Source: Ruminococcus sp. (GTDB lineage: Bacteria; Bacillota; Clostridia; Oscillospirales; Ruminococcaceae). From it: a DNA stretch of 35,741 nucleotides. The DNA lies in contig SVNJ01000003.1 of NCBI GenBank assembly GCA_015066955.1, positions 1-35,741 on the forward strand. Reading direction: 5' to 3'. The stretch's first letter is position 1. The number at the start of each line of letters is the position of its first letter. The notes under the pieces were generated by a model that was not told the origin of the DNA, ran no database searches, and saw nothing but the letters and a program-made list of their open reading frames with translations. A program made the translations under genes and the position numbers. This document shows, piece after piece, positions 5,727 to 24,044 of the stretch.

Positions 5727-7097
5727 TTACTTTACATTCCCAAACGCCTGTTTAAGAGTACTCACAGGAATAATCTCAATATCATAATCCTCAGCATTTA
5801 TCCCCTTCATGGACTGCTTCGGCACTATACACTTTCTGAAGCCCATTCTCTCAGCCTCACGAATCCTCTGTGAAGCATGAGAAACCGAGCGTATCTCTCC
5901 GCCAAGACCGATTTCTCCGAATGCTATAAGCTCCTCGTCAATCTGCTTATCCATAATTCCCGAATAAAGCGCCATAGCAACAGGCAGATCTGCCGCAGGC
6001 TCATCAAGTCTGAAGCCGCCTACTATGTTAAGGTATACGTCAAGCGAACCCATGAATATTCCAAGCCTTTTTTCAAGCACGGCAATAATAATATTCAGCC
6101 TGTTGAAATCAAAGCCCGTAACCATTCTTCTCGGTGCGGAATAGCTTGTTTTTGCCGCAAGTGCCTGAACCTCCGCAAGTACGGGACGTGTACCCTCCAT
6201 CACGCATGCAACGCAGGTGCCCGAAACATTATGCGGACGTCCCGAAAGAAGCATCTGCGACGGATTCTCCACCTCACGCAGTCCCCTGTCAGCCATTTCA
6301 AACACACCGATTTCATTGGTTGAGCCAAAACGATTCTTCACAGCTCTCAGCAGACGATAGCTCTGATGACGCTCTCCCTCAAAATAAAGCACCGTATCAA
6401 CAATATGTTCCATAACCTTCGGACCTGCAATTGCACCGTCCTTGTTGACGTGACCTACAATTATAAGGGGGATTTCCTGATTTTTTGCGGTATACATAAA
6501 GAGATTCGTGCACTCCCTCACCTGTGTAAGACTTCCCGGACTTGACGTAATTCTGCTTATACTCATAGTCTGAATCGAATCGATTATGGCTATATCGGGA
6601 TTGCAGGACGCTATAGTCTCCGCAACTGCCTCAGCATCGGTAGCAGTAAGTATGTAAAGATTCTCCGTATCAACTCCGAGACGCTGTGCACGAAGCTTTA
6701 TCTGTCTTGCCGATTCCTCTCCCGAAACGTAAAGCACCGAATGCTCCTCACCGAGAAACTGACAAATCTGAAGAAGAATCGTACTTTTACCGATTCCCGG
6801 TTCGCCTCCGAGAAGCACAAGCGAGCCTTTGACAAGGCCTCCTCCGAGAACACGGTTAAGCTCTCCTATTCCCGTATCATAGCGCACATCATCATCAACA
6901 CCGATCGCCTCAAGCTCAAGGATTTTCTCCGACAAATCAGGAAGAGACTGTGCGGAAGTGTATCTGCCAGCAGGAGTGCTGTCCGCAACATCCTCCTCAA
7001 AGCTGTTCCACGCACCGCAGGACGGACATTTTCCGTTCCATTTTGTACTCTCGAAGCCACATTGATTGCAGGTATATATAAATTTTGATTTTGCCAT
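5727..7097 (-). CDS. radA: DNA repair protein RadA (Sms)
   Basis: RadA is a RecA-like ATPase that helps process recombination intermediates. The N-terminal zinc finger is visible as CNQCG and CPSCGAW, then a Walker A motif GGEPGIGKST, the RadA signature KNRFGS, and a C-terminal Lon-like region with FRLDEPAADLPVA. The start is placed at 7097 (MAKSKFIYTC), giving 456 residues as usual for the family. An AGAGGTGG site lies just upstream, and the 40 extra in-frame codons further up are repeat-derived DNA. A 138-base gap with two repeat fragments separates it from the upstream RING-domain gene. No own promoter was recognised. Confidence 0.96.
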   Translation of the reverse strand: MAKSKFIYTCNQCGFESTKWNGKCPSCGAWNSFEEDVADSTPAGRYTSAQSLPDLSEKILELEAIGVDDDVRYDTGIGELNRVLGGGLVKGSLVLLGGEPGIGKSTILLQICQFLGEEHSVLYVSGEESARQIKLRAQRLGVDTENLYILTATDAEAVAETIASCNPDIAIIDSIQTMSISRITSSPGSLTQVRECTNLFMYTAKNQEIPLIIVGHVNKDGAIAGPKVMEHIVDTVLYFEGERHQSYRLLRAVKNRFGSTNEIGVFEMADRGLREVENPSQMLLSGRPHNVSGTCVACVMEGTRPVLAEVQALAAKTSYSAPRRMVTGFDFNRLNIIIAVLEKRLGIFMGSLDVYLNIVGGFRLDEPAADLPVAMALYSGIMDKQIDEELIAFGEIGLGGEIRSVSHASQRIREAERMGFRKCIVPKQSMKGINAEDYDIEIIPVSTLKQAFGNVK

Positions 7098-7194: not shown

Positions 7195-7204
7195 ATTTGA
7201 ATAT

Positions 7205-7234
7205 ATTGCTCCCCCAACTAACTCCTGAGGCAAT
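7205..7234 (-). repeat. 30-bp end fragment of the 157-bp inverted-repeat element
   Basis: Read on the minus strand it ends GGAGTTAGTTGGGGGAGCAA, the same right end as the full copy at 15927-16083. The other side is cut short and closes with ATTGCC. The terminal GGGGGAGCAAT faces radA, as in every other copy in the window. It begins 1 base after the RING-domain gene stop. Confidence 0.7.
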
Positions 7235-7235
7235 A

Positions 7236-8192
7236 CTAAATCATCATAAAGATGCAAACAATAACGAAATTGACCGCAACCGCAAGTCCCAGTAGAATAA
7301 GTCCCATAATAAGGATATTAGCAGGATTCACGCCTCCCATAGATTTAAGCCTCTGAGGACTGACAGGTCCGCCGTAATGAGTCTTTACCTTATTGATTGA
7401 CTTTACGGAAAATTTCATATAAAGCCAGTTTGCAAAAAGACACATAACGATTCTCAGTATCCAGTCAAAGGTTGAACATATCTCAATCAGACTTTTGATA
7501 AGGTTCTCATTTTCGTTAATCAGGCTCAGGGATTTCTGCATAAAAGGAAACGCCTCAGCCTGCGAACCGAGTATATAGAGGTATTCGGGAATATTCAGCA
7601 GCATTGTTACAAGTGCCGCAGCAATTCCCCAGAACCACATTTTTCTGTTTGCAAAATAAAAATACGGGAAAAACAGACATATAAAATTAAACGAAATCTT
7701 TGAGCCTATATCCTTCATTCTCTTGAAAAGCGGCAGATAGTAGAAGGTATTGGAGTCTACAAACTGTGCGACCTCCTTAAGCTTTGCACCTTCAAAATCC
7801 TCATCGGGATTAAAGCCGAGATACTGCTTTGTAGGGTCGATTCCGCCGAACATATTTCCGATGTCCGGTTCACCGTTTTCGCCCATATTCAGCTTTGAAA
7901 ACTCATTTCCGCATGACTCGCACCTTTCAGCGTCAATCGCATTTCTGTGCATGCAGGACGGACAGATGCGGTGAAATTCGGTCTGATGCATCGGCTGAGG
8001 CAGCGGCTTTACCGCAGCAGTCTCGCTTTTCCAGCTTTCGCCGCTTTCATGCAGCTGAGCATTTGTACAAGTCCCCGATTCTTTGTAGCATTCCCTGTGA
8101 TAAGGAGTACCGCATTCCGGACAAACCACGACATCGTCGCTGTCATTGAATTCAACGGCGCAGTGAAAACACTTCTCTCCTGTAAATCTCAT
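7236..8192 (-). CDS. Membrane protein with prokaryotic RING-finger-like and zinc-ribbon N-terminus
   Basis: A 318-residue protein of unknown function. Residues 8-45 hold a cysteine/histidine array (CFHC, CPECGTPYHRECY) like the prokaryotic RING-finger family. A four-Cys zinc ribbon follows, CPSC and CESCG (about residues 76-95). The second half has several hydrophobic segments (about 165-235 and 290-318), resembling DUF2628-type membrane domains. The zinc modules are expected to face the cytosol. The start is supported by GGAGG 6 bases upstream. The gene has a plausible promoter at 8300-8329, and a 51-bp repeat sits in its leader. A function in protein binding is an inference from the zinc fold only. 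Confidence 0.85.
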   Translation of the reverse strand: MRFTGEKCFHCAVEFNDSDDVVVCPECGTPYHRECYKESGTCTNAQLHESGESWKSETAAVKPLPQPMHQTEFHRICPSCMHRNAIDAERCESCGNEFSKLNMGENGEPDIGNMFGGIDPTKQYLGFNPDEDFEGAKLKEVAQFVDSNTFYYLPLFKRMKDIGSKISFNFICLFFPYFYFANRKMWFWGIAAALVTMLLNIPEYLYILGSQAEAFPFMQKSLSLINENENLIKSLIEICSTFDWILRIVMCLFANWLYMKFSVKSINKVKTHYGGPVSPQRLKSMGGVNPANILIMGLILLGLAVAVNFVIVCIFMMI

Positions 8193-8218: not shown

Positions 8219-8269
8219 ATTGCTCCCCAGACTTAATATAATTATTCAAGAGTTAATTGGTGGAGCAAT
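8219..8269 (-). repeat. 51-bp half-copy of the 157-bp inverted-repeat element
   Basis: Read on the minus strand it starts ATTGCTCCACCAATTAACTC and ends GGGGAGCAAT. This matches the left half (first 50 bases) of the full copy at 10266-10422, with an internal GGGGAGCAA serving as its right end. It is itself a perfect terminal inverted repeat for 8 bases. It lies in the presumed leader of the RING-domain gene, 26 bases before the ATG. Confidence 0.82.
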
Positions 8270-8299
8270 AGTAAAAAGCTAATATTTATAATATCTTAT

Positions 8300-8329
8300 A
8301 TTATAACACCTTTCGCCTCATGAAATCAA
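8300..8329 (-). promoter_or_regulatory. Promoter of the RING-domain gene
   Basis: Minus-strand TTGATT (8324-8329), 18 bases, TATAAT (8300-8305). The predicted transcript would carry the 51-bp repeat in its 5' leader. Confidence 0.6.
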
Positions 8330-10211: not shown

Positions 10212-10250
10212 AGGCGTAGCTTAAACCGAAAGGGTGAGCTATGCCTTTTT
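10212..10250 (+). terminator. Hairpin with U-tract; terminator or structured RNA
   Basis: The stem AGGCGTAGCT (10212-10221) pairs with AGCTATGCCT (10237-10246). The closing inner hairpin is ACC-GAAA-GGGT, and TTTTT follows. It most simply ends the rsmD-coaD operon. It is 100 bases past the last stop and is preceded by ACGCAAAG, so a small structured RNA is possible. Confidence 0.7.
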
Positions 10251-10265
10251 GTTTATATGTATAAT

Positions 10266-10422
10266 ATTGCTCCACCAATTAACTCTTGAAGAATTTTATG
10301 AAGCTTGGGGAGCAAAAGTCAAGAAAGAAACCGCAGGCATACTTTCGTATGTCAAGGTTGATGACGCAGAAATTTGCTTCCCAAGCAATAGAAAAACTTC
10401 AAGAGTTGGTTGGGGGAGCAAT
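10266..10422 (+). mobile_element. 157-bp MITE-like inverted-repeat element, copy 1
   Basis: The ends are ATTGCTCCACCAATTAACTC at the left and, inverted, ATTGCTCCCCCAACCAACTC at the right; 23 of the outer 26 bases match and similarity extends about 50 bases inward. Each arm carries its own internal GGGGAGCAA/TTGCTTCCC boundary. The centre holds a small hairpin, CATAC-TTTC-GTATG. Two reading frames are open through the whole element; one continues in frame into the Lrp gene, which starts 19 bases after the element. No transposase is encoded and no clear target duplication is visible. A second copy of identical length lies at 15927-16083. Confidence 0.85.
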
Positions 10423-10441
10423 CATGACAGGTGGGTTTTTT

Positions 10442-10897
10442 ATGGACAAAATCGACGCACGTATCATCTCTTTATTGCAGGAGGATGCAAGAATGCCGCT
10501 GAAACAGCTGGCAGAAAAGGTATTTCTGTCTGCACCTGCGGTATCGTCAAGAATTGACAAGCTTGAAAAGCAGGGTGTCATTACAGGCTACAACGCTGTG
10601 GTGAATCAACAGAAGCTCGGCTACCACATAACCGCTTTCATAAGCCTTGAAATTTCGGCAAGTCAGAAAAAAGAATTCTACCCGTTTATCGAAAAAATCC
10701 CGAATGTTCTGGAATGCTGCTGTGTTACGGGAAATTACTCCATGCTTATCAAGGTTGCTTTTTCAGACACACAGGAGCTTGATTCTTTTATAGGACAGCT
10801 TCAGGAATTCGGCAACACATCTACTCAGATTGTCTTTTCAACACCTGTGCCTCACCGTGAGGTTGCGGTTATATCAGAGCCTGTCCACATAGGATAA
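10442..10897 (+). CDS. Lrp/AsnC family transcriptional regulator
   Basis: A DNA-binding regulator of amino-acid-related genes, 151 residues, usual size. The N-terminal winged helix-turn-helix is seen at DARIISLLQEDARMPLKQLA with SAPAVSSRIDKLEKQGVITG; the C-terminal half is the ligand-binding/oligomerisation (RAM) domain. The start is set at 10442 (MDKIDARI), the conserved family start, with AGGTGG 6 bases upstream. The frame is open 52 codons further up only because it runs through the 157-bp element. An ATG at 10424, right after the element's GGGGGAG end, is an alternative start. It is monocistronic, followed by a strong terminator. The target genes and effector cannot be told. Confidence 0.93.
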   Translation: MDKIDARIISLLQEDARMPLKQLAEKVFLSAPAVSSRIDKLEKQGVITGYNAVVNQQKLGYHITAFISLEISASQKKEFYPFIEKIPNVLECCCVTGNYSMLIKVAFSDTQELDSFIGQLQEFGNTSTQIVFSTPVPHREVAVISEPVHIG

Positions 10898-10918
10898 ATG
10901 TACAGTTATAAGAAACGA

Positions 10919-10950
10919 GGGTTCTCTGCTTTTTGCGGAGAACCCTTTTT
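10919..10950 (+). terminator. Intrinsic terminator of the Lrp gene
   Basis: Stem GGGTTCTC (10919-10926) with GAGAACCC (10938-10945), then TTTTT. Confidence 0.92.
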
Positions 10951-10962
10951 ATAATATTCTAA

Positions 10963-11140
10963 AAAGGGGACGCCCTCTCTTGCAGGGCGTCCCCTCTTCA
11001 AAAACAGTCCGCAGGACTGTTTTTGAATTCACCCCTTGCGGAGCGCTTCTAAGGCAAGAGAATTTCGCTCTCTGCGGAGAGCGACCAAAGGCTCTGCCTT
11101 TGGAATTCGCAAGCCTTTGAAAAGGCTTGACCGAAACTTT
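10963..11140 (+). repeat. Multi-hairpin dispersed repeat (about 178 bp), copy A
   Basis: A run of adjacent palindromes: GGGGACGCCC...GGGCGTCCCC, AAAAACAGTCC...GGACTGTTTTT, a CTTGCGGAGCGC segment, CGCTCTC...GAGAGCG, CCAAAGGC...GCCTTTGG and CAAGCCTTT...AAAGGCTTG. The same block is present inverted at 20151-20330 with few differences. It lies between the terminator of the Lrp gene and the stop of queH. The organisation is that of a REP/BIME-type intergenic element. An open frame over it is not considered a gene. Confidence 0.88.
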
Positions 11141-11155
11141 CTGCCATTGTTTCTT

Positions 11156-11782
11156 TTAATTTCCGTTCATCTTCTCCCGTGCAAGCTTACTGTAGATGCA
11201 TCCGCAGTAGTCCTGACGATAGAGATTATACTGCCTTGAAAGCTCGATTGAACGCTTGTAGCCCTCATGCTTCTTGAAATCCGAAAACAGGTACTCTACC
11301 CCGCATCTCTCCGAAGCCTGTGCACCATACTCGTTAATAAATGCACAGTCCTTGTGCGGACTTATCGTAAGTGTAGTTGTAAAGTAATCCGCACCAAGCT
11401 CCGCCGCTTTTCTGCCTGCCGCATCAAGACGATAGCCTATACATTTTCTGCAGCGCTCTCCACGCTCGGGAAGTTCTTCAAGTCCCACTGCAAGCTCATA
11501 AAAAGGCTCGGGATTATAGTCCTCGTCAATAACGGGAATATCAAGTCCCATTTCCGAAACAAGCCTTTTCAGCTCGTTTTTGCGGTACTCATATTCAGCT
11601 TCGGGAGCAATATTCGGATTGAAAAAGTAAAGCGTAATCTCAAAATGCTCATGCAGAAATTCAAGAACGTAACTGCTGCAGGGTGCACAGCATGCATGAA
11701 GCAGAAGCTTCGGCTTTACGCCGTCCTTTTGCAGCTGTTCAAGCTTTTTGTCAAGCATCAGACCGTAATTAACCTTCGGCAT
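11156..11782 (-). CDS. queH: Epoxyqueuosine reductase QueH
   Basis: Performs the last step of queuosine tRNA modification, reducing epoxyqueuosine; QueH is the non-orthologous replacement of QueG. The 208 residues carry the paired-cysteine motifs of the family, HACCAPCSS near the N-terminus (about 29-37), CRKCIGYRL in the middle and DYCGCIYS near the end. These bind the iron-sulfur cluster and metal. Its start codon overlaps the ricT stop (TAATG), so it is translationally coupled. It is the last gene of the seven-gene minus-strand run; no T-rich terminator was seen after it, only the multi-hairpin repeat. Confidence 0.93.
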   Translation of the reverse strand: MPKVNYGLMLDKKLEQLQKDGVKPKLLLHACCAPCSSYVLEFLHEHFEITLYFFNPNIAPEAEYEYRKNELKRLVSEMGLDIPVIDEDYNPEPFYELAVGLEELPERGERCRKCIGYRLDAAGRKAAELGADYFTTTLTISPHKDCAFINEYGAQASERCGVEYLFSDFKKHEGYKRSIELSRQYNLYRQDYCGCIYSKLAREKMNGN

Positions 11783-12648
11783 TATTTATCCTCAAGCCCC
11801 TTGAGTGCCTTCAGCTCGTCACGGTTCACTCTTATTTCAGCATCCTTAAGAAGCTTTACCTCGCTTCTGTCAAGAGTTACGGGCACTTCGGACTTCTCGG
11901 TCTTAACCCTGAGCTTGCCCGTAATAAGGTTAACATCCTCTACTCTGCCCTTATCACCGTCGGGAGTAACAACAACCGCACCGATTTTCGGTGTGATTTT
12001 CAGAAGTGCTTCATAAGCATTCTGCTCATTTTTGAGACAGCACATAAGACGTCCGCAGGTTCCCGAAATTTTTGTAGGATTAAGGGAAAGTCCCTGCTCC
12101 TTTGCCATTTTTATTGAAACAGGCTGAAATTCGCCTATATAACCCTTGCAGCAGAACTCACGTCCGCAGATACCGAGTCCGCCGAGAATTTTAGCCTCGT
12201 CACGCACGCCGATCTGTCTCAGCTCGATTCTCGTTCTGAAAACTGCCGCCAGATCCTTTACAAGCTCACGGAAGTCCACACGGTTTTCCGCAGTAAAATA
12301 AAACAGAAGCTTATTGTTGTCAAAGGTACATTCAACATCAACAAGGTTCATTTTAAGTCCCCTGTTTACGATTTTCTCTTCGCAGATCTTAAATGCCTCC
12401 TGCTCCTTGAGCCTGTTCTTTTCAACAGTTTTAAGGTCAGCCGCATCGGCAAGTCTTACTATAGGCTTAAGGGGCGAAGTAACCTCGCTGTCCTCAAGCT
12501 GACGGTTTGCAATTACAACCTCTCCGCACTCAACTCCCCTTACAGTCTCGACAACTGCTCTGTCGCCGACCTTTGCATTTATCTTTCCGGGAGAAAAGTA
12601 ATATACCTTTCCTCCGCTTTTAAAGCGGATTCCTACTATTTCCTTCAT
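11782..12648 (-). CDS. ricT: PSP1-domain protein RicT (YaaT)
   Basis: In Bacillus this protein forms the RicA-RicF-RicT (YmcA-YlbF-YaaT) complex, which carries Fe-S clusters and promotes mRNA processing by RNase Y. The 288 residues contain the PSP1 core with GICGREFCCKGYIGEF and SGTCGRLMCCLKNEQ, the conserved cysteine pairs. AGGAG lies 5 bases before the ATG. It follows holB by 36 bases, the same order as in Bacillus subtilis (yaaQ-yaaR-holB-yaaT), which supports the assignment. The intergenic region has a small GGGAT/ATCCC hairpin with no T-tract. Confidence 0.95.
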   Translation of the reverse strand: MKEIVGIRFKSGGKVYYFSPGKINAKVGDRAVVETVRGVECGEVVIANRQLEDSEVTSPLKPIVRLADAADLKTVEKNRLKEQEAFKICEEKIVNRGLKMNLVDVECTFDNNKLLFYFTAENRVDFRELVKDLAAVFRTRIELRQIGVRDEAKILGGLGICGREFCCKGYIGEFQPVSIKMAKEQGLSLNPTKISGTCGRLMCCLKNEQNAYEALLKITPKIGAVVVTPDGDKGRVEDVNLITGKLRVKTEKSEVPVTLDRSEVKLLKDAEIRVNRDELKALKGLEDK

Positions 12649-12684
12649 TATATCTCCTATCCGGGATGCACTATATATCCCAAG

Positions 12685-13662
12685 TTACAGACATTCCATT
12701 ATTTCGCCGCACAATGCCGCAAGGGCAAGCGGAATATTTACATTTGCCTCTACAGTACGCCATGCCCTTTCGATACAGCGATGAACCGCCGCCGCTTCAT
12801 AAGGAGTCATGACAGAAGCAAGACGATACGCACCCTCTCTGTAGCAGCCTATAAGCGGGGCGTCATTATCCCTGCCGAGAACTGCCGCATCTCTCATCAG
12901 CTTATCAAGAAGCGAAAGCGTATTTCGCACATCATTCCGCTTTGTGCCGAGAGTGCACATAAGGGTATTCAGCGTATACTCGTCCTTATATATTATACTA
13001 TCGGTCATGCGTTTTGTCAAATCCACAATTTTGCGAAGCTCCTCATTCTCGAGGTACTCTTTGCACATTCCGATATTTCCGTGAAAGCAGTCCACTGCCG
13101 AATCAATACTGCTCTTTCCGTAACCGCACTCCGCAAGTGCCTGTTCTGCCTCTGTTTCGGTACATATCGAAGTGCCGAAGCATACACACCTTGAAATAAT
13201 CGTAGGCAGAAAATCCGCCTTTGATTCGCAGGTAAAGATGAAATATGCATACTCGGGCGGCTCTTCAATAATTTTCAGAAGAGTATTCTGTGTACGTGTG
13301 TCCATGCTGTGACAGTCACGGAATATGTATACCTTCCGTCCGCTGCTGTTATTTGGCTTTATGAATGCATCGCTGCATATTTCCCTTGCTGTTGCAACAG
13401 AATAACCGCCAAGCTTTCCGCTTGTTTCCGCATAGGTAACATCGGGGTGAAAGCCCTGTTGCACATTCTTGCATGCATTGCATATACCGCAAGGCTCTCT
13501 GCCGCCGCTTTCACACAGCAGAAGCTGTGTGTAATACTGTGCCATAAGCTTTCTGCCGCTTCCCTTTTCGCCGTAAAACATAACGGCATGGGCAGTACGT
13601 CCGCATTTCACCATATTGGAAAGCGTTGCAAGAAGCTGCTCGTTTCCGTATATTTTCTTCAT
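12685..13662 (-). CDS. holB: DNA polymerase III, delta prime subunit
   Basis: Clamp-loader subunit that helps load the sliding clamp. The 325 residues begin MKKIYGNEQLLATL, followed by a degenerate P-loop (GEKGSGRK), four zinc-binding cysteines (CESGGREPCGICNACK), LLKIIEEPPEYAYF and the arginine-finger SRC motif (IISRCVCF). This is the pattern expected for delta prime rather than DnaX. The start is placed at 13662, since AAGGTG sits just upstream and the darA stop is 1 base away. The frame would otherwise extend eight codons into darA. Confidence 0.95.
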   Translation of the reverse strand: MKKIYGNEQLLATLSNMVKCGRTAHAVMFYGEKGSGRKLMAQYYTQLLLCESGGREPCGICNACKNVQQGFHPDVTYAETSGKLGGYSVATAREICSDAFIKPNNSSGRKVYIFRDCHSMDTRTQNTLLKIIEEPPEYAYFIFTCESKADFLPTIISRCVCFGTSICTETEAEQALAECGYGKSSIDSAVDCFHGNIGMCKEYLENEELRKIVDLTKRMTDSIIYKDEYTLNTLMCTLGTKRNDVRNTLSLLDKLMRDAAVLGRDNDAPLIGCYREGAYRLASVMTPYEAAAVHRCIERAWRTVEANVNIPLALAALCGEIMECL

Positions 13663-13663
13663 A

Positions 13664-13990
13664 TTACACCTTTTCGAAGCGTTCAACGTCCGTCACGAAT
13701 ATCGTAGCACCGCCCACCTGCACCTCCATAGGCATTGAGCTGAATGAGTCGGGGGAAAGTCCGTGCATTTTATTATCGACAACCTGTGTACGCTTTTTGC
13801 TCTTAGATGCAATAACACTTATAGCATCATCAACCTTTTCGTTTTCGGTACATATAAGAAAGGTAGTGTTTCCCGAGCTTAGGAAACCGCCTGTTGAAGC
13901 AAGCTTTGTTGCGAAGAAGCCGTTTTTGGTAAGTGCCTTTGAAACAGCACTGCTGTCGTCTCCGTTTACTATTGCAAATATCAGTTTCAT
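13664..13990 (-). CDS. darA: Cyclic-di-AMP receptor DarA (PstA, YaaQ)
   Basis: A PII-like trimeric protein that binds c-di-AMP; its downstream partners are not settled. The 108 residues include the family motifs NGFFATKLASTGGFLSSGNT (ligand loop) and a C-terminal beta strand region ending VGGATIFVTDVERFEKV. AGGAGG lies about 10 bases before the ATG. It abuts holB by 1 base, which matches the Firmicutes neighbourhood. The tmk gene often found next to it is absent here. Confidence 0.94.
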   Translation of the reverse strand: MKLIFAIVNGDDSSAVSKALTKNGFFATKLASTGGFLSSGNTTFLICTENEKVDDAISVIASKSKKRTQVVDNKMHGLSPDSFSSMPMEVQVGGATIFVTDVERFEKV

Positions 13991-14027
13991 AAAATAAGCC
14001 TCCTGTTTCAGAGAAGTGTTATTATTA

Positions 14028-15359
14028 TCATTTTACCACATTTACGGTTGAAATTCCATACCTTTTAAAAATATTTATGCATTCCTGTGTGATTATTTCT
14101 CCGCTTGCCGCAATAGGTACAGCAGGCGGACAGGGTACCTTCACCGCTCCGCATACCCTTCCGAGTGCTTTTTCAACAGGTATTTCCTCCGACGGAGAAA
14201 ATACCGCCTCACGTATTCCCATAGCCTTCGGGGGGAGCGGCATATTGAAGCTGTCCGATACGAGGGCTTTTCGTCTGCATTGCGGAAGTGTCTTTTCAAG
14301 GGCAATACGCAATACTTCATAGTCCTCACGCTTATTCATAGGCGACATAAGCAGAATCACAAGTGAGCTGTCGGAATATTCGCACTCCGCACCATTCGCA
14401 CGAAGCCTCTGTGCAAGCTCATCTCCGTCAAAACCGCTTTCCGCCGACTTTATAGTTATGTGAAACGGCTCTCCGTCTGCAAATTCAAACCTGTCCGCAA
14501 AGTACTCCTTAAAGTCTGTGATGCATTCAAGATTCCGGCTTATATCACTGCGTATGTGCTTTTCGATATACTCCGTGCAAAGGTCAAGCGAAGCCATTAT
14601 AAGATACGACGGACTTGTTGAAGCAAAAATACTCATGCACGGTTTCAGCCTGTCAGCATATTCGGGACATGACGTGTGAAGCAGTGCCGCACACGTAAGT
14701 GCAGGGAGCATTTTATGAGCAGAATCACAGCAAAGGTCAGCACCGAGAGCCATAGGGTGCATACTTTCCTCAAAAAAAGCAAGATGTCCCCCGTGTGCAT
14801 TATCAATAAGCAGACGTGCGTCGTATCTGTGACATATATCCGCAAGTGCCTTTATATCAGCGGTTTTACCCGTATAATCGGGAGACGTAACATAAAGGCA
14901 GGCAGGCTCAGCGCACTGCAACAATGCCCCTTCAACAGCGTCAATATCAATCTCGCCTGAAAGTATTCCACCGTTATAACGCGGCATTATCCATGCAACA
15001 TCGATACCGAGAAGTGCCGCCGCATTCAAAAATGCACGGTGAACATTTCTGACGGCAAAAACTCTGCGGTTTTCCTGCTTCATAAGCGCAAGCATCGCCT
15101 GTATGCAGAGGGTTGAGCCTGCGGCGGAATAAACCGTAGCCGCCGTATTATAAAGACGGGACATATTCCTCTCACTCTCAGCTATAATGCCCTCCGCTTC
15201 GAAAAGGCTGTCCGCACCGCAGATTTCCGTTATATCAAGCGAAAAAAGTTCACGGGGAATTCTCTCCGACGGACATACGCCTTTATGTCCCGGCATATGA
15301 CATCGAAGCATTCCCGACTGTGCATATTTCTCTAAAAAATCGTAAACAGGCGTACTCAT
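14028..15359 (-). CDS. Orn/Lys/Arg decarboxylase family protein (YaaO-like)
   Basis: A fold-type I PLP-dependent decarboxylase of the short, single-chain kind (443 residues; no N-terminal wing domain). The N-terminus MLRCHMPGHKG, the mid-region DNAHGGHLAF and the PLP-lysine region DSAHKMLPALT are visible. Substrate could be lysine, arginine or ornithine; the sequence alone does not decide. AAGGAGG precedes the ATG. In B. subtilis the related yaaO lies just upstream of tmk-yaaQ, so the neighbourhood is conserved without tmk. It starts 10 bases after the sigma-like gene. Confidence 0.93.
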   Translation of the reverse strand: MSTPVYDFLEKYAQSGMLRCHMPGHKGVCPSERIPRELFSLDITEICGADSLFEAEGIIAESERNMSRLYNTAATVYSAAGSTLCIQAMLALMKQENRRVFAVRNVHRAFLNAAALLGIDVAWIMPRYNGGILSGEIDIDAVEGALLQCAEPACLYVTSPDYTGKTADIKALADICHRYDARLLIDNAHGGHLAFFEESMHPMALGADLCCDSAHKMLPALTCAALLHTSCPEYADRLKPCMSIFASTSPSYLIMASLDLCTEYIEKHIRSDISRNLECITDFKEYFADRFEFADGEPFHITIKSAESGFDGDELAQRLRANGAECEYSDSSLVILLMSPMNKREDYEVLRIALEKTLPQCRRKALVSDSFNMPLPPKAMGIREAVFSPSEEIPVEKALGRVCGAVKVPCPPAVPIAASGEIITQECINIFKRYGISTVNVVK

Positions 15360-15369
15360 TGCACCCTCC

Positions 15370-15672
15370 TTATTTCATATAATATTGCATAAAACGGTAA
15401 ATTTTAAGTCTTGCACGTTTAAGCGCCGCCGAAACAGCCTGAGGCGATACATCAAGCTGCTGTGCAATTTCAACGATATTCATTTCCTTAAAATAGTATA
15501 ACATAATTATTTGCTTTTGTCTTGCTGTAAGCTCATTTTTTATTACATTTAACAGAACCTTTTTCAATATGCTCACAGTCCTGCCGTTATCGTCGCATTC
15601 TCCGAGAAGCCTGCGAAGCTCCTTTTCCTCTTCGCCCGTACATAAATCTGAGTAGGTAATTCGTCTTGACAC
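15370..15672 (-). CDS. Small sigma-70 region 4-like helix-turn-helix protein
   Basis: A 100-residue protein whose second half (about residues 50-95) is a sigma region 4 helix-turn-helix: LTARQKQIIMLYYFKEMNIV then EIAQQLDVSPQAVSAALKRA. There is no region 2, so it is unlikely to be a full sigma factor; it may be a DNA-binding regulator or a promoter-specificity accessory. The start is a GTG at 15672, chosen because AGGAGG lies 8 bases upstream, overlapping the stop of the coiled-coil gene. Both genes therefore form one translational unit under the LexA-like-operator promoter. Confidence 0.85.
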   Translation of the reverse strand: MSRRITYSDLCTGEEEKELRRLLGECDDNGRTVSILKKVLLNVIKNELTARQKQIIMLYYFKEMNIVEIAQQLDVSPQAVSAALKRARLKIYRFMQYYMK

Positions 15673-15677
15673 GGCAA

Positions 15678-15890
15678 TTACCTCCTGCTGTAGGATACAA
15701 GATGCGCTATGATTTCCTGCGCCTGCCTGTACTCAGTGTACAAAAGGCTTATTCTCTGTTCAAGATTCCTCTCTTCTATTTCGTACTCCTTTCCCTGACT
15801 GAGCAGACTTTTCTTTTCCTCTGTAAGCTCAGCCATTCTTATTTTCAGTTTTTCGCAGCCTGTTTCGTAGCCTCTGATAAGTTCATTCAT
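15678..15890 (-). CDS. Small coiled-coil protein, first gene under the putative SOS promoter
   Basis: A 70-residue, Glu/Lys/Leu-rich protein predicted to be almost entirely helical (MNELIRGYETGCEKLKIRMA onward). I do not recognise a family. The start at 15890 is chosen because GGAGG lies 5 bases before it. The frame is open upstream through the 157-bp element, which would add 66 residues, but that part is repeat-derived and also found in front of the unrelated Lrp gene. It overlaps the ribosome binding site of the sigma-like gene. Confidence 0.8.
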   Translation of the reverse strand: MNELIRGYETGCEKLKIRMAELTEEKKSLLSQGKEYEIEERNLEQRISLLYTEYRQAQEIIAHLVSYSRR

Positions 15891-15926
15891 GTCAGCCTCC
15901 GTTCTTAGGGAGAAACGTAGTTTTTT

Positions 15927-16083
15927 ATTGCTCCCCCAACTAACTCCTGGATTTTTTCTTTCGCTTGGGAAGCAAAATTTTGCGTCATCAACCTTGACAT
16001 ACGTCAGTATGCCTGCGGTTTCTTCCTTGACTTTTGCTCCCCAAGCTTCATAAAATTCTTCAAGAGTTAATCGGTGGAGCAAT
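15927..16083 (-). mobile_element. 157-bp MITE-like inverted-repeat element, copy 2
   Basis: Read on the minus strand it begins ATTGCTCCACCGATTAACTC and ends GTTAGTTGGGGGAGCAAT. It has exactly the same length as copy 1 and about 90% identity. The central stem CATAC/GTATG is kept while its loop differs (TGAC instead of TTTC). It lies between the LexA-operator promoter (16142-16170) and the coiled-coil gene (start 15890), so it is part of the leader of that transcript. Its GGGGGAGCAAT end faces the gene, as in copy 1. Confidence 0.85.
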
Positions 16084-16112
16084 AACACCGCACAAAGTGC
16101 AAGGCAGCTGTT

Positions 16113-16141: not shown

Positions 16142-16170
16142 ATTATAAAACAAATGTTCGGTTTTGTCAA
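16142..16170 (-). promoter_or_regulatory. Consensus sigma-A promoter with LexA box in spacer
   Basis: Minus-strand TTGACA (16165-16170), exactly 17 bases, TATAAT (16142-16147): both hexamers match consensus. The spacer contains CGAACATTTGTT (16149-16160 on the plus strand), a GAAC-N4-GTTT LexA-like box, so repressor would block polymerase. Together with the second box at 16113-16125 this predicts DNA-damage induction of the downstream genes. Confidence 0.82.
16149..16160. promoter_or_regulatory. LexA (SOS) box 1, inside the promoter spacer
   Basis: Minus strand CGAACATTTGTT: a GAAC-N4-GTT match to clostridial LexA sites, located between -35 and -10. It is 24 bases from box 2. Confidence 0.68.
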
Positions 16171-20107: not shown

Positions 20108-20150
20108 AAACTTCACCTTTTAAATTTATATTTATCAGTTAATAATGCTG

Positions 20151-20330
20151 AAAGTTTCGGTCAAGCCTTTTCAAAGGCTTGCGGATTCCAAAGGCAGAGC
20201 CTTTGGTCGCTCTCCGCAGAGAGCGAAACTTCCCTTGCCTTAAGAAGCGCTCCGCAAGGGGTGAATTCAAAAACAGTCCAGTGGACTGTTTTTGAAGAGG
20301 GGACGCCCTGCAAGAGAGGGCGTCCCCTTT
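20151..20330 (-). repeat. Multi-hairpin dispersed repeat (about 180 bp), copy B
   Basis: Inverted copy of the block at 10963-11140, with the same series of hairpins in the same order when read on the minus strand. It lies between the terminator of the TPR gene and uvrC. Differences from copy A include CCAGTGG instead of CCGCAGG in one loop. No TSD was recognised. Confidence 0.88.
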
Positions 20331-21584: not shown

Positions 21585-24044
21585 TCAGAAGCCTCTCTTT
21601 GCAAGATCCTTCTTGAATTTCTGGTCAATCTTGTCCTGCTTTTTCTTAGCCTTAAGCTCAGCCTTTGTAAGCGGTCTGTCAGGCTCTGCGGACTTCTTCG
21701 GAGCGGAAGCACTTCTTGAAGATGTTCTTGTAGGTGCCTTGTACTCTTCAAATACAGGAACAGCCTTGTCTAAATTCTGCTTCTTCTTGATTGAATCATC
21801 GCCCATTGTTGAAAGGATATCCTCGATTGATTCGAGTACAGGCATCTGATTGCCTTCCATTTCAAAGATATTCTTTGTGCTCTTTTCCTTTGATACAGCA
21901 ACGGCATTTGCAACAGACTTAGGCATAGCCTTGCGCTTTTCTGTAGCAATCTTGGAGATATTTACACCGCTTGTGCCTCTCTGTCCGTATATAGGCTGCA
22001 TAGGACGCATTGGCTGTACGGGAGGTACAGGCATAGGTGCAGGCTGTACGGGTGCTGTCGGCTGTACGGGTGCTGTCGGCTGTACGGGTGCTGTCGGCTG
22101 AACGGGTGCAGGTTCAGGCTGAACAGGTGCTGGTGCAGGAGCTGTATATTCGGGCTGTACAGGAGCTACGGGCTGAACAGGCTGTGCCATAGGCGCAGGC
22201 TGTACGGGAGCAGCCATCTGCTGCGGCATCTGTACACCACCCGGATAGCCCATATTCTGAACAGGCATAAACATCGGCTGGCCGTTCTGGTCGTAGCCTA
22301 CAAGCTGTGACTGAACGTAATTATATACAGGCTGACCATTTACATCGTATCCTGCAAACTGAGGAACAGTAACAAATACAGGCTGCTCTGCCATAGGTGC
22401 AGGTGCAGGCTGACGTGTTGCAATCTCATCAGCGAATACGGGTGTGCTGTATACATGCATATTCTGCTTTTTCTCAGTTTCTGCAGGCTTTACAGGCTCT
22501 GGTTCAGCAACTGGCTCGGGCTCTGCTTCAGCTACAGGCTCAGGCTCTGCTTCAACAACTGGCTCAGGCTCTGCTTCAACAACTGGCTCAGGCTCTGCTT
22601 CAACTACAGGCTCGGGCTGTGCCTCAGCTACAGGCTCGGGCTGTGCCTCAGCTACAGGCTCGGGCTCTGCTTCAGCTACAGGCTCAGGCTCTGCTGCAGC
22701 TACAGGCTCAGGCTCTGCTACAACTACAAGCTCAGGCTCTGCTGCAGCTACAGGCTCGGGCTGTGCCTCTTCAAATCCGAACAACTGATTTGCAACAGTA
22801 TCCCAGTCAGCAGCAATTTCTTCATCAGATCCAGCTGCTTCTTCAACTGTCCCGGCTTCAACAACCTCTTCAATCTCTTCGGGAGCGGCTGTAACCTCGT
22901 CCTCATTTATATCAACAACATTTTCGTCGTTGTCGTAAATGCTTGTTTCTTCGGGTACTGATTTTGCGAATATCTCCATATTATCGGAACTTCCCGACGA
23001 AATGGAGAACATCTTCATAATATCGTCGTCTGATACATCCTTCGGAGCTTCCTGTGCCTTTTCTTCCGCAGCAGCAGGAGCTGTTTCCTGTGCAGGTGCG
23101 GGAGTAAATACAGGCTCTTCGGGATTCTTGAAAATATCATTCATTTCAAGCTCATCGGGCTGAGGAGCTTCTTCCTTCTTTGCAAATGTATCCTTAGGCT
23201 CTTCGGGATGAGTGAATATATCATTCATCTCACCGTCTGTGTCAAACTGCTCTGCAGTATTTCCACTGTATCCGAACTGTGCAGGAGCTTCCTCCTGTGC
23301 AGCAGGCTCGGGCTGTACAGATGCCGGTGCAGGCTGTACAGGCTCGGGAGCACCCGGAGTCGGAATTGCAAACTGTGCAAGGAAATCGTCCTGCGGCACA
23401 GTTGCCTGAGGTGCGGGTGCAGGGGCTTCCTCCTGTGATGCAAACGGATCCTCATCCGGCTTCTCGATTGCAAACTGTGAGAGGATATCTGCAGGTGCTT
23501 TCTTTTCGGGTGCAGGTGCTTCTTCTTCCTGCTGAGGAACATTTATAGCAAACTGTGCAAGATCGTTATCGATAGCAACACCTGTGCCGGGAATTGTTTT
23601 CGGCATCGGTGCCGGTGCAGGAGCAGGCTGCTCGTTTACGGGAGCCTGAGGCGCAGGTGTGGGTGCAGGTGTGGGTGCAGGTGCTGCCTTAGGCTTTGCA
23701 GGTGCGGGAGCGGGCGCAGGAGCAGGGGCCTGAGGTGCTGTAATCTTCGCTGTGGTATTGCCGAGAGGAACGATATTCTCATCCTCGATACCCTTCTTTG
23801 CTCTTGCCTTTTCTTCCTTGATAAGACGCTGCATTTCCTTTTTATCGGCTTTAATGATTCTCTTTGCGAGAGCCGCCTTGCACTTTTCGCAGGTAAGCTC
23901 CTTAAGGTCAGTCATTTCACCTTTTTTAATGTATCTTGTAATATTTTCGGCCTTCTGCAGATTTATTCCGCAGCCTGTTTTCTTTCCGTTGTCAGTGCCG
24001 TGAACATCTTCGCCGCTTAGCGAAGTAATAAGTAGGATTTCCAT
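21585..24044 (-). CDS. Large Pro/Ala/Glu-rich disordered protein with N-terminal zinc-finger-like motif
   Basis: An 819-residue protein not recognised as a named family. Residues 1-60 hold a His/Cys array ([23 protein letters not shown]) that looks like a small zinc finger. Residues 65-105 are strongly basic/charged. The rest is low complexity: Ala-Pro runs, about ten 8-residue EPEPVAEA-type repeats (near 425-515) and three to four QPTAPV repeats (near 650-670). Spaced in the disorder are short motifs that recur: [15 protein letters not shown] and DFLAQFAI, and two EMNDIF..PEEP. The last 40 residues are Lys-rich. There is no signal peptide and no membrane segment, so it is probably cytosolic. 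GGAGG lies 6 bases before the ATG. It could act as a scaffold with repeated binding motifs. Confidence 0.83.
22042..22095. repeat. 18-bp tandem repeats in the disordered-protein gene
   Basis: Three identical copies of GGCTGTACGGGTGCTGTC in a row, followed by diverged ones, encode QPTAPV on the minus strand. Identity at the DNA level suggests recent slippage. Confidence 0.85.
22491..22766. repeat. 24-bp tandem repeats in the disordered-protein gene
   Basis: About eleven imperfect copies of a 24-base unit (GGCTCAGGCTCTGCTTCAAC plus four bases) encode EPEPVAEA-type octapeptides on the minus strand. Unit variants alternate between AEA, VEA and AEAQ forms. Confidence 0.85.

Follow-up and report, generated by a model that had tools for sequence, protein, structure and literature searches.

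Two copies of a 157-bp inverted-repeat element lie before genes in a 35,741-nt stretch of Ruminococcus sp. DNA (contig SVNJ01000003.1 of assembly GCA_015066955.1, positions 1 to 35,741; hereafter the window), both with the same end turned toward the start codon, which raises the question of whether such repeats are leader RNAs or expression cassettes, as a sequence-only reading of the window had suggested, or random insertions. The answer that we consider probable is that the element is a non-autonomous miniature inverted-repeat transposable element (MITE) that inserts at TA and contains a folded core shared with other MITEs, and that some of its copies have been retained as oriented leaders. 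Comparison of repeats within the window paired 10265-10422 with 15927-16084 (158 nt, 92% complementary), in agreement with the proposed two copies of equal length and about 90% identity; the proposed half copy and 30-bp end were both recovered (repeats at 8220-8270 and 7204-7227), and all four repeats turn the expected end toward a start codon at the expected distances (Table 1). The folds of the full copies had z-scores of -10.5 and -10.4, with none of 200 shuffles equally stable, and that of the half unit with its downstream leader was unexceptional (z -1.3; 22 of 200 shuffles equally stable). A central stem that is kept while its loop changes had also been described, and we found the stem constant with two central loop bases varying.

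Mobility of the element and the fold at its centre

The element, which we call type A, has terminal inverted repeats, is short and non-coding, and occurs in multiple copies, as expected of a MITE. Searching the home genome (G000; 1.88 Mb, 80% complete) with it gave 26 matches, including 4 full copies and several ends, while the related genome G087 contained 34 full-length copies that were 98-100% identical. From 32 G087 loci submitted, 28 were scored (no row was obtained for L308, L320 and L321, and L282 coincides with L323), and all 28 had a T before ATTGC and an A after GCAAT, which fits insertion at TA; the full copies of the home genome had the left T in 4/4 cases and the right A in 1/4. 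The Lrp/AsnC-type gene behind the first window copy had eight orthologous places in relatives (L265-L272, E below 1e-50), and the element was absent from all eight, with upstream DNA readable in seven of them (L272 has a run of N there). The A element is a MITE that probably inserts at TA. A search of plasmids gave no match, and a search of viral contigs gave one matching stretch.

At the centre of the element lies a core of 52 nt with a GCA/AA internal loop and a TNNC loop. In an alignment of 29 core rows, with stems assigned by us, both sides had changed in 12 of the 15 pairs, and the covariation score was 0.512 against 0.182 ± 0.019 in shuffles, none of 500 reaching as high; the stems, for which the sequence-only reading had proposed a covariation test, covary. 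Core pairing was 92.2% in register and 25-49% when slid, and stem 1, which played no part in the discovery of rows, paired in 282 of 328 cells (191 ± 6.5 when shuffled). Variation was almost absent from the unpaired GCA and AA, and likewise from the T and C in the TNNC loop. Mismatches in the inner five pairs of stem 1 were G-T in 19 and A-C in 2 of 210 cells, which suggests that folding takes place in the plus strand, be it RNA or single-stranded DNA. The loop pair was repeated in inverted form outside stem 1 (CAAG...GCAG) in 19 of 42 cores, placing stem 1 between two like internal loops; this outer pair was missing in rows of types C, D and F with the usual arms.

The core recurs in at least 10 element types with different ends, sorted by eye: ATTGCTCC (A), ATTGCTGCACCAATTAAA (B), GGCAACACCGCAC (C), GGGCATCTCTAAAAACC (D), TACTAAGTATCC and TACTAATCTC (E, H), GGAAACGCTGATTAAA (F), TACTAATTCCTGACC (M), GAACTTGTTC (N) and others. 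Copies of type C had 4-bp duplications by eye, such as TTAA, TATA and TGTA, and type A uses TA, from which more than one transposase class would follow. C-type elements are also present in R. flavefaciens FD-1. The 24-nt heart of the core (GCAGGCATACTNNCGTATGTCAAG) was found in at least 119 stretches of public genomes, whose titles, among the matches listed, mostly named Ruminococcus, Oscillospiraceae and other Clostridia; the few exceptions included one Alistipes metagenome-assembled genome. In the home genome, the central motif with up to 3 mismatches had 14 sites (0 for the backward control) and the covariance model of the core had 16, the only matches in the window being the two full copies. 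Within the genus, 83 of 125 genomes contained a match to the model at E <= 0.01; within the order, which we take to be Oscillospirales, 52 of 295 genomes and 32 of 148 genera did so at E <= 0.001. Among 18 distant core loci, 3 were too short for scoring of inverted ends; such ends (at least 13/14) flanked the core in 10 of the 15 scored, compared with 0 of 15 control places. We infer that the core is a structured module, preferably RNA although single-stranded DNA would also serve, carried by many MITEs.

Several arrangements of these elements were also observed. In L210, a D-type MITE flanked on each side by TTTT interrupts an A element at 2000-2500, and the nested MITE has a core variant of its own (GAAGGCGTGC TTTC GCACTCCAAG). 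In several genomes (L084, L134 and L172), one and the same unrelated sequence, which starts GGGGTCCCCGACGCGCCCC, takes the place of the right part of the E-type element; it may be a larger element nested at a single site. Core elements of types K, O and P were found in L111, L141, L143 and L170; sequences like GGTTCGA or ATTCGAG, resembling the tRNA T arm, follow the right end in L111, L141 and L170, and a link to tRNA was rejected when ARAGORN detected no tRNA there. Many C-type copies end at the stop codon of a gene, with TAA overlapping the 4-bp target, the right end facing the gene seemingly being commoner.

Orientation and conservation of copies before genes

We scored orientation and distance to the next start codon for 39 full copies, 28 copies from G087, further G013 copies and half units. 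The A copies were divided into A1 (home genome, G060, G055, G045, G057, G056, G004 and orthologues, including the window copies), A2 (G013, G054, G002, G028 and G070; partial copies L287, L292 and L294 omitted) and A3 (G087), and orthologous copies were merged (L200 into L196; L206 and L207 into L204; L208 into L205; L229 into L228; L226 into L224). Of the 18 deduplicated A1 loci, 15 had the right end about 0-61 nt ahead of a start codon, and at no locus was the left end within 70 nt of one; the verdict for L204 and the distance for L002 were read by eye, the start given by the script lying inside or at the edge of the element. Where an A1 copy lay in a divergent gene pair, its distance was 17-53 nt to the right gene and about 150-450 nt to the left one. 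The 23 A2 loci included 2 right-facing and 6 left-facing copies, and the 28 A3 loci 6 and 4. The difference between 15:0 in A1 and 8:10 in A2 and A3 together was significant (Fisher p 0.0005). Since A2 and A3 are unbiased, fresh insertions are evidently unoriented and orientation is a property of A1; the leaders look retained rather than targeted. The sequence-only reading had named random orientation as evidence against it, and A3, with its 28 fresh copies, and A2 indeed showed no such orientation; the predicted rule held in A1.

Promoters on the far side of the repeats had been expected in two or three cases. A perfect promoter-like site (12/12; 16170-16142) stands 58 nt ahead of copy 2 and a weaker one (10/12) ahead of the half unit, while copy 1 has only a TATAAT at 10260-10265, touching the element, without a good -35. 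Across the window, a promoter scan gave 25 sites compared with 16.3 ± 4.5 in shuffles. Of the 15 right-facing A1 loci, 4 had a promoter-like site of at least 10/12 within 120 nt upstream, where shuffles predict 0.9, and a narrower 70-nt test, which missed the 16170-16142 site, gave 5 of 18 loci at p < 0.05.

Sequence conservation was high in one orthologous copy, L196/L200 (from two species, G060 and G073), which sits between a gene's stop codon and the ATG of the gene that follows: 158 of 160 positions were identical, compared with 82% over the whole 3.9-kb stretch. Its right end, GGTGGAGCAATCATATG, contains a ribosome-binding-like sequence that is paired in the predicted fold. L204/L206 lean likewise (99.4% vs 93.5%). 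Judged by such identities, constraint is clear for one leader, L196/L200, and is not general.

Under the reading that we favour, the 157-bp element would be a non-autonomous MITE moved in trans by a putative transposase into TA targets in either orientation; its centre is a conserved folded core common to many MITE types of the order whose ends differ. The A1 copies found before genes present their right end to the start codon, at least one of them being strongly conserved. Hairpins in such leaders may alter the stability or translation of the mRNA, given that they can be situated close to the 5' end of the transcript and that the right end can contain a ribosome-binding sequence, and the core may bind a common host or mobile-element factor. 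The leader or expression cassette first proposed would then hold in part: the orientation of A1, the upstream promoters, the conservation of L196/L200 and the stem covariation speak for it, and mobile copies that insert either way, unrelated downstream genes and the unoriented C-type copies speak against it.

Alternative explanations and known systems

Several points weigh against this reading or parts of it. Gene starts came from a simple home-made gene finder, and the A1/A2/A3 division, made by arm sequence, was drawn after the results had been seen. Half units lean rightward weakly (8 vs 2 of 14 by script, L006 entering on both sides), too few for firmness. C-type copies near starts were 9 right-facing and 15 left-facing, and in tandem gene pairs 16 and 27, with no orientation rule, the family labels for these counts having been assigned by loose patterns (L104, with E-like ends, was among those labelled C); an obligatory role in mRNA predicts such a rule, so the core need not act in mRNA. 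The identity of the element was 94% in L205/L208, where the surroundings had 95%, and 83% in L228/L229, where the flanks had 88-97%; by eye, the change in L228/L229 lies mostly in the left half. The strand polarity was weak when all eight pairs of stem 1 were counted (G-T 21, A-C 12), and in stem 2 (G-T 37, A-C 1) 30 of the 37 G-T stood in one column. Stem-2 counts are moreover biased, since most rows were found with the stem-2 pattern, and template-switch repair of quasi-palindromes can mimic covariation. Finally, no transposase with the ends of the element was found, and no pairs of ends 1-2 kb apart occurred among the matches listed from the 125 genomes.

A bolder proposal, which we hold only tentatively, is that the core is a selfish 52-nt nucleic-acid module taken up by many unrelated MITEs of one order, that a common factor binding the plus-strand fold, which in many copies has pseudo-two-fold GCAG/CAAG internal loops, aids the persistence or movement of the elements, and that some copies have been co-opted as 5' leaders.

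The orientation of A1 could also stem from a promoter inside the element that reads out of its left end: copies with that end toward a gene would be lost and those pointing away would survive, the leader itself being inert, an explanation to which we give a rather low probability. A leftward TTGACT-18-TATAAT-like site (at least 9/12) was found in 20 of 39 full copies, against 1 of 39 in the opposite direction; it was present in the A1 copies inspected and not in two A2 copies inspected (L212 and L215), in line with a bias confined to A1. However, the half units, which lack the -35 part, show the same weak lean, and the conservation of L196/L200 would be left unexplained.

We regard it as similarly doubtful that these are plain MITEs whose centre is shared by descent, their ends swapped by recombination or nesting and their covariation produced by template switching. 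Types C, D and F share by eye an interior of about 100 bp beneath different ends, nesting was seen in L210 and the correction of quasi-palindromes is an established process, but common descent fits poorly with the near constancy of the unpaired positions (GCA, AA, and T and C in TNNC) alongside changing stems.

Somewhat less likely still is that the core acts as single-stranded DNA, forming a hairpin that is cleaved by an HUH/Y1 enzyme of the REP-associated or IS200-like kind, which would give strand polarity without transcription and a single mobilising system for elements with different ends. The excess of G-T over A-C in the inner pairs of stem 1 agrees with it, as does a weak tendency of the core strand to oppose the GC-skew leading strand (45 vs 27; relative to the coding majority only 28 vs 22), and REP dimers occur inside longer palindromes according to the portion of PMC3733652 that treats them. 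Against such an enzyme, the ends and duplications (TA for type A; 4 bp for type C, by eye) indicate transposases that recognise ends, a crude scan for HUH motifs matched 3 of 373 sequences, and the single RAYT-like gene inspected (L170) had no core within 400 nt on either side by eye. In-frame coding insertions are very improbable and were rejected as a candidate: open frames traverse both window copies, but indels break them across 39 aligned copies (by eye), and 0 of 121 scored core sites lay inside a gene.

Among known systems, NEMIS- and ERIC-like bacterial MITEs are the nearest kind. Correia/NEMIS, ERIC and RUP are described as bacterial MITEs in the relevant part of PMC2229807, which also reports an orientation-dependent effect of ERIC on mRNA; as far as that account goes, they resemble the present elements in a length of 100-200 bp, terminal repeats, TA ends, long hairpins in transcripts and a mostly intergenic location, whereas here one folded core extends across types with different ends in an order and strong orientation is confined to one subfamily. 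REP/REPIN and the GTAG-/CGTC-tagged repeats, in the portion of PMC3733652 concerned with them, are likewise short hairpins with unpaired tags, sometimes within longer palindromes; unlike them, the core has no GTAG/CGTC foot, and it has a two-sided GCA/AA internal loop and occupies the centre of a MITE. The main text of that paper contains none of the terms Ruminococcus, Clostridi and Firmicutes. Rickettsia palindromic elements, as outlined in parts of both papers (PMC2229807, PMC3733652), are also palindromic and repeated with open frames, and differ in that here the frame is not kept and the location is outside genes. Cis-regulatory leader RNAs of the riboswitch class share a covarying structure and the occurrence of some copies in 5' leaders, and are set apart by the mobility of the present element, its unrelated downstream genes and the lack of an Rfam match. 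Among the papers listed in our searches of the open-access literature, none dealt with these repeats or described a folded core common to different MITE types.

The window and the meaning of the elements

The features of the window are collected in Table 1. The terminator-like hairpin directly upstream of copy 1 has counterparts in several Lrp orthologues, where a hairpin with a T-run occurs at the matching place and the element is absent. The genes behind the 4 full copies of the home genome encode an Lrp/AsnC protein, SpoIIID and two proteins without a Pfam match (only the first 60 aa being searched for two of the four), and a fixed class of downstream gene, as riboswitches would have, is not seen among these unrelated genes. 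Rfam gave 0 matches in the window at the gathering threshold and, at E <= 1 over 8 loci, 4 matches, none positioned at the elements.

Table 1. Positions of the repeats, core, promoter-like sites and neighbouring genes in the window
Feature	Position	Strand	Details
Full A1 copy 1	10266..10422	+	157 bp; terminal repeats ATTGCTCC...GGAGCAAT; 19 nt to start at 10442
Full A1 copy 2	15927..16083	-	157 bp; 36 nt to start at 15890
Half unit (element positions 1-50)	8219..8269	-	core absent; 26 nt to start at 8192
Short derivative, right end of element	7205..7234	-	30 bp; 107 nt to start at 7097
Structured core in copy 1	10319..10369	+	covariance model R1, 57.9 bits; copy 1 among the model-building rows
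Structured core in copy 2	15980..16029	-	covariance model R1, 55.3 bits
24-nt heart GCAGGCATACTNNCGTATGTCAAG, copy 1	10333..10356	+	motif search
24-nt heart, copy 2	15993..16016	-	motif search
Promoter-like site upstream of copy 2	16142..16170	-	TTGACA-17-TATAAT, 12/12
Promoter-like site upstream of half unit	8300..8329	-	TTGATT-18-TATAAT, 10/12, TG before -10
Promoter-like site inside copy 1, reading out of left end	10293..10322	-	TTGACT-18-TAAAAT
Equivalent internal promoter-like site in copy 2	16027..16056	+	promoter scan
Terminator-like hairpin directly upstream of copy 1	10227..10251	+	counterparts in several Lrp orthologues
Lrp/AsnC-type regulator downstream of copy 1	10442..10897	+	PF13404, PF01037
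70-aa open reading frame downstream of copy 2	15678..15890	-	no Pfam match
Sigma-70 region 4 protein, next after the 70-aa open reading frame	15370-15672		

Two other repeats were seen in the window. A second intergenic repeat, different from the 157-bp element, occupies 10963-11144 and 20147-20330 in opposite orientations (88 + 82 bp, 98% complementary), one copy lying downstream of the Lrp gene and the other near 20200. A coding 24-bp tandem repeat of about a dozen copies spans 22423-22817 within a Pro/Glu/Ala-rich open reading frame (21585-24044).

MITEs are usually seen as ends recognised by a transposase around a meaningless middle. In the present elements the middle is conserved and covaries as a fold, and it is found under different end types and across a bacterial order, which makes the case for a function in the interior of MITEs a testable one. 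The bacteria that carry these elements are abundant in the gut and rumen, and their unoriented fresh copies, set beside the oriented copies before genes, may make it possible to follow how mobile elements turn into regulatory leaders.

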